This document shows positions 31,101 to 40,877 of a DNA stretch of 64,000 bases, piece by piece. Position 1 is the stretch's first letter; each line of letters begins with the position of its first letter. The notes below the pieces were generated by a model, which saw only the letters and a list, made by a program, of their open reading frames with translations, searched no databases and was not told the origin of the DNA. The position numbers and the translations under genes are program-made. Source of the DNA: Styela clava (taxonomy: Eukaryota; Chordata; Ascidiacea; Stolidobranchia; Styelidae); the NCBI RefSeq assembly GCF_964204865.1, contig NC_135252.1:18497383-18561382 (forward strand), in the 5' to 3' direction.

Positions 31101-31995
31101 CTTTAAATCTGATTACGAACAAATATGATTGTGAACTTCGTATAGATATGAAAGATTGGAAAAACAACACAGCTTATGCCAGATATGGGTGAGTCGTGTG
31201 ATAATAAAATTAAAAAAAATCATTGTATTACATATACCTTATAGATGTCGGTTATCTGATACCATATTTGAAAAAGTTGACATTGACCAAAATTTCCATT
31301 GTTATTTGAATACACACTCGGGAATAAATGATAGAGCAATAGAAGTTGATTGCGTATTGAATGACTCGACATCCTTATTTCATGTAACAGGGTTGAAGTG
31401 GTGCAAATTCGAAATAGCTATTTCTAATATTTAAAATTATTCATATTGATTGCATAAAACTGTATATGATACACCAACTACAAACAGATGAGAAACTAAA
31501 AATAATATGGAAACGTAACCAGACTATTGTGAACTTACAAAAATGAATACACATTTGACCACTGTTAATAAATAGACAAGTAAACGAATCTCGAAACCCT
31601 CAGTCAAACCTAAACTTTGTCTATAGAGACGCTGTTGAAAATTAGAAACATGAATTGCGCTCTGAATTTCCAGGTTGTTCAAAGTTGGAGATGAAACTAC
31701 AAATTATCGGCTAACCATTGGTGAATACAGCGGAAATGCTGGAGATTCATTGTCATATCATAATGCAATGAACTTTACAACTAAAGATTATGATAATGAC
31801 ATTGCCGCCAAAAATTGCGCTCAACGATATATTGGTGCTTGGTGGTACAGGAAATGCCACAGATCTAACCTTAACGGATTTTACTTTAGAGGAAATTCGT
31901 CATTTGGACAGGGAGTAATCTGGTTTACTTGGAGGGGACAGTACTACTCTCTTAACTTTATTGAGATGAAACTAAGAAGAAAAGTTGAAGTGTAA
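28116..31995 (+). CDS. FReD gene B2, intact secreted fibrinogen-related protein
   Basis: Nine exons: 28116-28164, 28404-28465, 28867-28882, 29054-29320, 29632-29796, 29876-30021, 30234-30330, 31092-31188, 31674-31995; 1221 nt, 406 residues, no stop or shift seen. Residues 1-17 form a signal peptide ([17 protein letters not shown]). About residues 38-186 are a Thr/Ser/Asp-rich stalk with [14 protein letters not shown] motifs rather than a coiled coil. The FReD runs from LPEDC to the end: [24 protein letters not shown] and NNTA possible N-glycosylation sites, DYDND Ca2+ loop, NC...KCH pair, WFTWRG. All four cysteines that pair in fibrinogen gamma are present, plus one extra in YDCEL. Family role: Ca2+-dependent binding of acetylated sugars or protein ligands; the ligand here is unknown. 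Donor of exon 7 is GTTAGT. Confidence 0.85.
30600..31047. mobile_element. MITE in intron 7 of B2
   Basis: Ends CACCCTTGTCCATGGGA and TCCCATGGACAAGCCTG (inverted, two mismatches) with an 8-bp duplication CTAATACC on both sides. Absent at the equivalent place in A1 and A2, present in B3 (39500-39947). Size and duplication fit a hAT-type MITE. The 69-codon frame at 30679-30888 lies inside it and is not treated as a gene. Confidence 0.8.
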
Positions 31996-33578
31996 AACTA
32001 AATTTAAAATTGTACGTTTATTTGCAATATTGATATATCAAAAAGTTGATGAGTTTTTATTCGTAGTTTTCTCAATATTTTAAAATTTAATTTTATGGTA
32101 TATTTGTGTTTGAATACATTTTATATGGGGTTGTTAAAGAAAGCTCACTAACACTCATCAAATCTTTAATCTAAGTTGAAGGCCACGAGTCATAACCTTC
32201 CGGAATGAAAAAAAAAATGGCGATCAGATTGGCGAATTTTAATACTATTATATATACAATTATTATATGAATGAATTTATTGGGCTATTTCTGGAGATGT
32301 TTTTTATGATTACTATAACGCGAACTAAACTAAAAACACAATAGTTTCGTATTTTTTCCTGCACTGACGTCAGTGCGAACATTGATTAAGATTGAGAATC
32401 CTTCTTTGCATTTAAGCAAATGAATTGAGTTTTTCATTTATTTATTGCACTTTTTCCATTTTGATATTTTTTGAATGCCTGACCAGCATAATGACTTTAT
32501 TGAACTACAATCATTGGCATGTTGGTCAATAGATTGTTAGATTGATTTTATACTTGTATCGTTAAAATACTTTTATGGAAAATTATATGTTATTTAGAAT
32601 GAATGTGCAAATTTATGAAACAGAACGCATTACAAGTGAACTTATTGAATATTGTTGTTACTTGAATTATTAACCCGAACCTATTGTTTTATCCGGTCAT
32701 TTTTCGTGTGGTACGAAGAGACGGACGGAATCAAATCAGTGGGTCGAGGACAGTAGATTAGGGATACTGAAAGTTTTGTAGAGGATAGTACGGATGATTG
32801 GGGGTGGGTCGAGGATAGAAAGTCAGAATGGGATAGGGCAGTGGGTTAAAGACTGGAACCTAGAGGGAGATTCAACGAACAATCGAGGATAGGAACCGAA
32901 ACGATTGTAAAGGAAGTCGAGGATATGGAGGGACGGAGGACACTACCCCATTCCTATGAATATTTGAACAAATATTGGAAATATATGAGTTAAAATATCA
33001 AATACAACACCTTATTATATCTTTGCATATAATAAACACCGACCTACCACAAGTGTATATTGCGTTTTAACTCACAAAACTGTCGACGTTACATTGTTTT
33101 GAATTCAGCAATAACAGAAATTTTGATTCTGATAAAAATTGACATTTGGTAATCACTTCGATCCAAATTTATGAGTATTGGAGAATTACAACTAAACGAG
33201 CTTTTTTTTAACGCGGATGAACTTTTCGGAGAAACGAATTGTTTGTTTTAATTTTTCTTTAAATTCAAAGTTTAGTAGTTAAATAGTTCAAAACTTGGGG
33301 TTATGTGTTACAGTGTCCTTTATTAAAATTTGTTAAGCTCGGCAACCCCATGTATGTGTTTATGTACATAAGTATGGGATTTTTGTGTTAAGCCGTATAA
33401 ACACGGTTAACTCACTCTACATACCGTATGATGAAGATGCCATATGACCAGCATGACTGATAGCAACGTTCTAGAAAATTCAGGCGAAATGCTTACAGTA
33501 TCTAGAATTGATGATATCTTGCTAAAATATGCCAAAAAGATTTGTTACAGAATGCAATTAGGACGATTAAACAGCTTA
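31996..33578. other. B2 3' flank, non-coding
   Basis: No gene. It aligns with the B3 3' flank (40878-42310) at moderate identity, including a decayed minisatellite at 32738-32940 and the segment before 33570 that matches 42190-42310. Ends where it is fused to the A3 remnant. Confidence 0.6.
32738..32940. repeat. Decayed minisatellite downstream of B2
   Basis: Four or five degenerate copies of GTGGGTCGAGGATAG, related to the spacer arrays; a relative lies at 41570-41690 after B3. Confidence 0.5.
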
Positions 33579-39900: not shown

Positions 39901-40877
39901 GATTGTTATGGGATGGGACAGAAAAAACTGTCCCATAGACAAGCCTGCTAATACTCTTATAACACTTTATTTGGTTTAATACATTGTTCAGGTCTAAAAA
40001 CTTTAAATCTGATTACGAACAAATATGATTGTGAACTTCGTGTAGATATGAAAGATTGGAAAAACAACACAGCTTATGCCAGATATGGGTGAGTCGTGTG
40101 ATAATAAAATTAAAAAAAATCATTGTATGACATATACCTTATAGATGTCGGTTATCTGATACCATATTTGAAAAAGTTGACATTGACCAAAATTTCCATT
40201 GTTATTTGAATACACACTCGGGAAAAAATGATAGAACAATAGAAGTTGATTGCGTATTAAATGACTTGACGTCCTTATTTCATGTAACAGGGTTGAAGTG
40301 GTGCAAATTCGAAATAGCTATTTCTAATATTTAAAATTATTCATATTGATTGCATAAAACTGTATATGATACACCAACTACAAACAGACGAGAAGGCTAA
40401 AAATAATATAGAAACGTAACCAGACTACTGTGAACTAATTTGTACAAAAAACAATACACGTTTGACCCCTGTTAATGGATAGTCAAGAAAACTAATTCCA
40501 AAACCCTCAGGCATATCTTAACTTTGAGTGTAGAAAAACAGTTGAAAATTTTCAGGTTGTTTAAAGTTGGAGATGAAACTACAAATTATCGCCTTACCAT
40601 TGGTGAATATAGCGGAAATGCTGGAGATTCATTGTCACCTAATAATGCTATGAACTTCACAACTAAAGATTATGATAATGATATTTGGCCTTTTAATTGC
40701 GCTCAACGATATACTGGCGCTTGGTGGTTCAGGAAATGTCATAACTCTCACCTCAACGGAGTTTACTATAGAGGAAATTCGACATATGCAGAGGGAATTA
40801 TCTGGCGTACTTGGCGGGGATACTACTATTCTCTTAAATTTATTGAGATGAAACTAAGAAGAAAATTTAAAGTTTGA
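36982..40877 (+). CDS. FReD gene B3, intact secreted fibrinogen-related protein
   Basis: Nine exons: 36982-37030, 37300-37361, 37770-37785, 37956-38222, 38534-38698, 38778-38923, 39134-39230, 39992-40088, 40556-40877; 1221 nt, 406 residues, open throughout. Same architecture as B2: signal peptide ([17 protein letters not shown]), microexon, Thr/Ser-rich stalk, FReD with four canonical cysteines plus YDCEL and the DYDND Ca2+ loop. Over exons 1-8 I count about 14 residue differences from B2 in some 300; in exon 9 about 21 in 106, mostly around the Ca2+ loop and pocket (DIWPFNC against [17 protein letters not shown] against [10 protein letters not shown]). The acceptor region of exon 9 is shorter than in B2. 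Expression, ligand and partner are not visible from sequence. Confidence 0.85.
39500..39947. mobile_element. MITE in intron 7 of B3
   Basis: Orthologous copy of the B2 insertion at 30600-31047, in the same site with the same CTAATAC flanks, about 98% alike by eye. Confidence 0.8.

Follow-up and report, generated by a model that had tools for sequence, protein, structure and literature searches.

A probably homogenised tract shared by two tandem fibrinogen-domain lectin genes of Styela clava ends in intron 8, upstream of the exon for the ligand pocket

We examined fibrinogen-domain (FReD) lectin genes that form a tandem array in a 64,000-nucleotide window of the Styela clava genome (contig C3, positions 18497383-18561382; 376.6-Mb genome), together with 40 kb upstream and 20 kb downstream of the window. 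Two genes of the array, B2 and B3, are nearly alike from the end of intron 1 to most of intron 8, and then differ strongly through exon 9, which encodes the Ca2+ loop and the ligand pocket, and through the 3' flank. The explanation we prefer, with a probability of about 0.72, is that the tails of the two genes are old and that a tract of approximately 3 kb was later homogenised, most simply by gene conversion, with a mixed cause of its stop before exon 9. The features compared are as follows, in positions of the window.

28116..31995, + strand: B2, nine exons (28116-28164, 28404-28465, 28867-28882, 29054-29320, 29632-29796, 29876-30021, 30234-30330, 31092-31188, 31674-31995), a 406-residue open frame with a C-terminal FReD; homology-based model with GT-AG introns.
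36982..40877, + strand: B3, nine exons (36982-37030, 37300-37361, 37770-37785, 37956-38222, 38534-38698, 38778-38923, 39134-39230, 39992-40088, 40556-40877), a 406-residue open frame; homology-based model.
28358..31543, + strand: low-divergence block of B2 (B3 partner 37254-40450), from the end of intron 1 to most of intron 8, with exons 2-8 and the intron-7 insertion.
28358..28650, + strand: 5' switch zone; B2 groups with B0/B1 on its left and with B3 on its right.
31487..31544, + strand: 3' breakpoint in intron 8 (B3 approximately 40387-40451); best point 31544/40451, interval within 2 units of log likelihood (lnL).
31674..31995, + strand: B2 exon 9, with the Ca2+ loop and ligand pocket.
40556..40877, + strand: B3 exon 9, with the Ca2+ loop and ligand pocket.
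31996..33577, + strand: B2 3' flank, homologous to B3 40878-42330 and 20-27% diverged in every 250-bp bin.

The divergence profile was obtained by sliding windows and by likelihood segmentation of 27300-32730. Among one to seven segments tried, three were best by the Bayesian information criterion (BIC). The first segment (27300-28357) differed at 74 of 1036 sites (7.1%), the second (28358-31543) at 77 of 3180 (2.4%), and the third (31544-32730) at 220 of 1113 (19.8%). When a single break was fitted to 28650-32730, the gain in 2lnL was 312.6, compared with a maximum of 19.2 over 500 permutations. The break is located 130-187 bp upstream of exon 9. Introns 2-7 showed divergence of 0.018-0.039, and intron 8 differed at 6 of 299 sites before the break and at 23 of 104 beyond it. 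Furthermore, the 5' flank (30/394, 7.6%) and intron 1 (20/239, 8.4%) give the block a weaker 5' edge as well; hence, the block is a tract and not a one-sided step. An initial annotation of this DNA had described a sharp divergence of the two genes from intron 8 onward, and both the sliding windows and the segmentation find a break there. Its estimate of approximately 31450/40350 was correct as to the intron, but the break lies 40-95 bp further 3'. The identity of 97-98% that it gave for exons 1-8 and their introns holds for 28358-31543, but not for the promoter, exon 1, and intron 1, which lie outside the block. Both genes also carry an insert of approximately 460 bp in intron 7 (B2 30590-31050; B3 39490-39950), which lies within the block and is absent in A1 and A2. 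This insert had been taken for a miniature inverted-repeat transposable element (MITE); we rejected a classical MITE, because inverted repeats of at least 14 bases were lacking and the ends showed only short, imperfect ones.

The coding sequences show the same contrast. By the Nei-Gojobori method (NG86), silent divergence (dS) was 0.040 and replacement divergence (dN) 0.022 in exons 1-8, whereas exon 9 had a dS of 0.324, a dN of 0.120, and a dN/dS of 0.37; the silent contrast was significant (p 2e-6, from rounded counts). Uniform silent divergence along the two genes and the lack of a breakpoint, which had been named as outcomes contrary to the initial annotation, were thus not found. Silent, intron, and flank divergence rise together at the 3' edge, and the high divergence persists for 1.58 kb beyond the stop codon. 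The region 3' of the break is old and the block is young, on which silent sites, introns, and the 3' flank agree. Residues differed at 21 of 106 positions in exon 9, which is exactly the approximate count given before, versus 14 among the first 300. Exon 9 is nevertheless not singled out, the entire 3' side being old: the exon differs at 46 of 322 sites (14.3%), a lower proportion than the 78 of 345 (22.6%) in the sequence directly on either side of it (Fisher p 0.007).

At its 5' edge, B2 is a mosaic. Three other copies were used in this comparison: B0, which lies upstream of the window and is cut inside exon 6 at the point matching the end of B1, and the following two.

7172..9000, + strand: B1, a 5' fragment of a B gene that stops inside exon 6.
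22388..26397, + strand: A2, a FReD gene with an in-frame TGA in exon 6, the outgroup here.

Derived sites were polarised with A2. In the head (27870-28358), 12 derived sites were shared by B0, B1, and B2 and none by B2 and B3, and three fit other groupings including B3. In the body (28650-29934), 20 were shared by B2 and B3, 22 by B0 and B1, and four by B0, B1, and B2 (head versus body, Fisher p 1.5e-6). All four B copies are within 1-3% of each other in 28358-28650. In the approximately unbiased (AU) test with two fixed trees, each tree was rejected for the other region (body tree on the head, p 0.007; head tree on the body, p 0.011). From head to body, the B1-B3 distance changed from 5.7% to 6.8%, that of B1-B2 from 1.6% to 5.5%, and that of B2-B3 from 5.6% to 2.7%. 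The B1-B3 distance is nearly constant while the distances of B2 flip; hence, B2 is the gene that switched sides, which points to B2 as the putative recipient. The test of discordant topology covers the 5' edge, and the outside copies, B0 and B1, have no tail.

We propose that B2 and B3 are old paralogs whose 3' parts, from the last stretch of intron 8 through exon 9 into the flank, would have been long without exchange (approximately 0.25-0.3 changes per neutral site). A tract of approximately 3 kb, beginning in intron 1 or 2 and ending in intron 8, would later have been made alike via recombination between the loci, in the simplest form by gene conversion from a B3-like copy to B2. The mosaic and the two-edged block are expected from a conversion tract of this length. 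Two causes may have contributed to the stop before exon 9. In the neutral part, a mismatch of approximately 20% in the tail would already have hindered conversion; such a mismatch would block strand exchange, so that a tail once diverged would stay diverged. In the selective part, conversions into the binding exon would have been selected against, the pockets of B2 and B3 being different. That divergence does not fall again on the 3' side fits the neutral stop. The binding exon may plausibly have been spared by selection, a reading that would fit an exon-9 island on contig C10, pocket sites that vary across the family, and the homogenised exon 9 of TGA-bearing A genes, all described below. We infer conversion in preference to two crossovers, its B3-like to B2 direction, and the reason for the stop. 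The initial annotation had suggested that conversion homogenised the 5' part and spared exon 9; conversion is retained here, but the tract does not include all of exons 1-8, and the whole 3' side was spared.

A different account holds that duplications of different age were joined by unequal crossing over, or that the assembly is in error, with neither conversion nor selection. Although the array is full of segmental duplications and two crossovers mimic one conversion, two switches in one 4-kb gene require two crossovers, and a similar polarity is seen in one array on another contig (C19_6901/6908). We regard this account as quite unlikely. In yet another account, a crossover in intron 8 gave B2 or B3 the 3' end of a less closely related FReD gene, an event compatible with conversion at the 5' edge. 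The sharp break of the tails would agree with such an import, and an event of this kind is seen in another gene, C19_6901. However, the 3' flanks of B2 and B3 align over their full 1.58 kb, as expected from one ancestral B locus, and no donor was found: among 150 exon-9 places scored in the genome (226 candidates; a lower bound on FReD exons), none was nearer to B2 exon 9 than B3 (80%). The exchange of exon 9 that the initial annotation had also considered is therefore without a donor among these places, while its precedent exists elsewhere in the genome; for B2 and B3, we consider it unlikely. The odds of these rival readings overlap.

To return to the conversion reading, exons 6-8 and exon 9 were compared in 17 genes of four clusters (38 non-independent pairs, with exon 8 of C19 partly covered). 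Exon-9 dS exceeded body dS in 36 of the 38. Among pairs with body dS below 0.07, the exon-9/body ratio was 34 for C19_6901/6908, 20.5 for B2/B3, 5.3 for C10_15215/15222, 3.7 for C10_7683/7695, and 1.4 for A1/A2, both of which carry the TGA. Since choosing pairs by low body dS inflates the ratios, the DNA itself was compared in the 130 of 496 pairs with enough upstream alignment (17 recent pairs and pairs above 16% are not listed). One recombinant was the following gene.

C19:6901126 (L042, L043): C19_6901, recombinant gene, considered together with L027 and L017.

This gene is 6908-like until just after exon 7 (50/920, 5.4%, upstream of exon 9, with one change each in exons 6 and 7) and 6894-like in exon 9 and the 3' flank; it differed from 6894 at 22 of 318 sites in exon 9, at 85 of 1443 in the 3' flank, and at 166 of 1338 upstream. 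The C19_6901/6908 pair thus has the polarity of B2/B3, with its edge after exon 7. The C10_7683/7695 pair showed an exon-9 island (39/306 versus 22/407 in the nearest flanks, p 0.00065). The dS ratio of C10_15215/15222 was not borne out by the DNA, introns 6-8 being 12-28% apart and exon 9 9%. No such pattern was observed in L009/L017 (upstream 5.0%, exon 9 6.6%) or L013/L025 (2.4%, 2.3%), and recent C19 copies are alike throughout. On contig C19, 5.33-6.08 Mb, FReD exon-9 copies are spaced approximately 93-102 kb apart (one 177 kb) and are near-identical where compared; they represent large recent segmental duplications. The pattern recurs in this small sample and is not universal.

An intrinsically fast evolution of exon 9 was rejected as the full cause, as exon-9/body dS is approximately 1 in the deeper pairs C10_15234/C10_15215 (0.95) and C10_15234/C10_15222 (0.74). 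In the 28 C19 pairs, however, the ratio was 1.4-5.3, with one at 34, so that part of the exon-9 excess may be intrinsic or come from shared history. Between A and B genes, dS was approximately 0.9 in exon 9 versus 0.19-0.25 in exons 6-8, which made an additional A-B breakpoint before exon 9 a candidate. We keep it as a candidate only, because exon-9 dS is 0.8-3.1 times the intron-8 divergence once six of 23 rows (pairs with L006, L014, L016, L018, L020, L021, and L023) are set aside as invalid.

The initial annotation had put forward diversifying selection behind the exon-9 jump. Because dN/dS is well below one and the flanks of exon 9 are more diverged than the exon, selection on exon 9 did not cause the step; this suggestion was discarded, as was an acceleration specific to exon 9. 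Divergence at silent sites, in intron 8, and in the 3' flank equals or exceeds that of exon 9, and the topology switch lies at the opposite edge. Both exon-9 proteins look constrained, and codon comparison does not support diversifying selection on the whole exon. As the sole cause of the step it is refuted, and divergence driven by such selection without recombination is very improbable.

What can be said in its favour concerns sites that vary across the family, the named pocket residues, and the Ca2+ loop of the C19 array. The first replacement in exon 9 falls at residue 28 of 106 (permutation p 0.0008), whereas close-neighbour clustering of replacements alone was not significant (p 0.096). 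Variability was scored on 22 other exon-9 sequences of the genome, eight near-identical loci having been removed before the entropy test. Sites at which B2 and B3 differ were more variable across these sequences (19 differing versus 83 same sites, p 0.0037; two of the 21 differing sites were excluded for thin or gapped columns). The clustering at the Ca2+ loop and pocket described in the initial annotation therefore stands as a late onset and as a preference for variable sites, but not as clustering of neighbours. When A genes were also excluded, the enrichment depended on the cut-off (p 0.020, 0.012, 0.057, and 0.033 at the top 10, 20, 25, and 33% variable sites); at 20%, 8 of 20 differing sites were variable versus 11 of 80 same sites. 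At the top-20% sites, pN/pS was 2.07 versus 0.20 elsewhere, and replacement changes were concentrated there (15/47 versus 11/192, p 5e-6), but their excess over silent changes was not significant (Fisher p 0.48; approximately two silent changes). At structurally chosen sites, pN/pS of B2/B3 was below one (Ca2+ loop 0.84, named contacts 0.77); in the C19 array, that of the Ca2+ loop was 2.03 (36 non-independent pairs). Named pocket residues differed at 3 of 5 positions versus 16 of 97 other sites (p 0.044). H382 and N418 are altered in B3 alone and K448 in B2 alone, and all three are invariant in the 22 other sequences.

The two pockets may differ in function. The Fibrinogen_C scores of the exon-9 frames were 116.9 bits for B2 and 112.2 bits for B3 (cut-off 22), and the best PDB match of the B2 FReD was FIBCD1 (8.7e-67). 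In the sections of PMC3908420 cited here, the Ca2+ of FIBCD1 is coordinated by D393 and D395 together with the S397 and N399 carbonyls, and its acetyl pocket S1 consists of Y405, H415, Y431, and W443, with A432 at the base; position 443 is Tyr in tachylectin 5A, L-ficolin, and M-ficolin. B2 and B3 belong to the same sequence family as these lectins and share with them the Ca2+ ligands D393 and D395. As both are kept in B2 and B3, each gene probably retains an intact metal site, although the loop differs at 397-399 (A-A-K in B2, W-P-F in B3). B3 has all five S1 residues (Y405, H415, Y431, A432, Y443 in FIBCD1 numbering), the set described in those sections for tachylectin 5A and the L- and M-ficolins. 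B2 (Y405, H415, F431, G432, Q443) keeps two of the five and differs from FIBCD1, tachylectin 5A, and the ficolins, as far as described there, by F431, G432, and Q443. The residues of B3 suggest acetyl binding of the ficolin type. According to the same sections, L-ficolin binds acetylated ligands mainly via S2 or S3; as it does so with these residues, the pocket residues do not prove the binding mode.

Several points weigh against our explanation. The 3' side never returns to low divergence, and there is no peak at exon 9 as expected from selection on exon 9 only; with no recovery on that side, a simple homology limit would yield an identical step. The tails of B0 and B1 do not survive, so that the source of the B2 tail is not assignable, and a tail import keeps the low probability given above. 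L027/L029 differ by 0.9% in exon 9 versus 3.7% upstream, the reverse of the B2/B3 pattern, which counts against the selective stop. Furthermore, the evidence base is one assembly. Lastly, A0 and A2 share a tract that passes through exon 9, in TGA-bearing genes. These two are identical over 23120-26617, intron-7 insertion included, with one base differing in the next 250, compared with 29 of 995 sites upstream of the tract and 26 of 1705 beyond 26868. Their identity is best read as a recent exchange or duplication, similar in length to the B2/B3 tract, and in that respect it speaks for our explanation. There is consequently no mechanical barrier to exchange at this exon, and a general barrier to conversion in exon 9 was excluded.

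The insertion in intron 7 of A2 (24910-25314) is 96.6% identical to an inverted copy at 51993-52400 and is probably a recent mobile element. With the 40 kb upstream, the order of the array is A0, B0 fragment, C0, A1, B1 fragment, C1, A2, B2, A3 remnant, and B3; no further FReD matches were found in the 20 kb downstream. The remaining members in the window are as follows.

306..3227, + strand: A1, exons 3-9, with the 5' end preceding the window and a TGA as in A2.
10777-13980: C1, a FReD gene less closely related to the others, its frame broken in exon 7; its copy C0 is upstream of the window.
33577..34053, + strand: A3, an A-gene remnant between B2 and B3 that comprises the last part of exon 8, intron 8, and the first part of exon 9.

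The in-frame TGA in exon 6 is common to A0, A1, and A2, B0 and B1 are cut in exon 6, and the C genes have the frame break in exon 7; hence, B2 and B3 are the sole copies readable throughout in this stretch of the array. The N-terminus of B2 is hydrophobic and resembles a signal peptide by eye. The Fibrinogen_C profile matched the reading frames of B2 exons 6, 7, and 9; those of exons 4 and 5 gave no Pfam match and hence none to the immunoglobulin superfamily (IgSF). In intron 8, A1 (2640-2756) and A2 (25838-25954) carry a foldback-like insert, close to the position aligned with the B2/B3 break at 31544. Tandem repeats are located upstream of B3 (35566-36165, 16.4 copies of a 37-bp unit) and of B2 (27018-27106, 1.9 copies of a 46-bp unit). 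Repeats at 17700-18266, 44026-44999, and 49034-49687, approximately 68-74% alike in DNA, flank the lectin array on both sides, and two long open reading frames in them share a motif like VFVHGxGGSSxSAE. A phage search gave no match, and neither Rfam families nor tRNA genes were found.

Comparable cases are known. In the red/green opsins, according to the parts of PMC3924837 used here, divergence climbs in exon 5 but stays low in the introns next to it, the "peak of divergence" of the Teshima-Innan model. There, as we propose for B2/B3, conversion homogenised tandem duplicates, and a functionally decisive exon remained divergent. B2/B3 show the two-edged block of low divergence with discordant topology (tested at the 5' edge only) that belongs to this type, but the opsins show a peak, while the divergence of B2/B3 is a step that does not fall on both sides of the exon and continues at 20-27% through the 3' flank. 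The closest likeness to the opsin peak in this genome is the island of C10_7683/7695. In ruminant CEACAM32, a member of a family in concerted evolution, the portions of PMC7042247 cited here describe conversion in the leader exon and introns and not in the Ig-like-domain exons. The sparing of functional exons recalls exon 9 of B2/B3, but the CEACAM32 exons encode mammalian Ig domains, whereas B2/B3 are fibrinogen-type lectins and their block includes coding exons 2-8. The Biomphalaria FREPs, as partly described in PMC2935394, likewise form a diversified family in an invertebrate, with the fibrinogen domain at the C-terminus. They have N-terminal IgSF domains, to which the scanned B2 frames gave no match, and apparent somatic variation, where B2/B3 show blocks of germline genes. 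Among the open-licence papers listed in our full-text searches, none was seen to report conversion sparing a functional exon in fibrinogen-domain lectins.

Conversion that spares a functional exon is thus described, in the parts of those reports cited, for opsins and CEACAM32, to which B2 and B3 would add fibrinogen-domain lectins. The many more FReD exons of this genome, 150 of them scored here, allow a test of binding-exon protection. At the level of function, acetyl binding in the ficolin S1 mode may be expected of B3, and B2 is predicted to lack it. Tentatively, and with less confidence than for B2 and B3 themselves, FReD arrays genome-wide may consist of two-module loci, in which the body is homogenised by frequent conversion and the last exon is protected or swapped as a unit. 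If so, new lectin specificities would arise in the germline on a constant scaffold.

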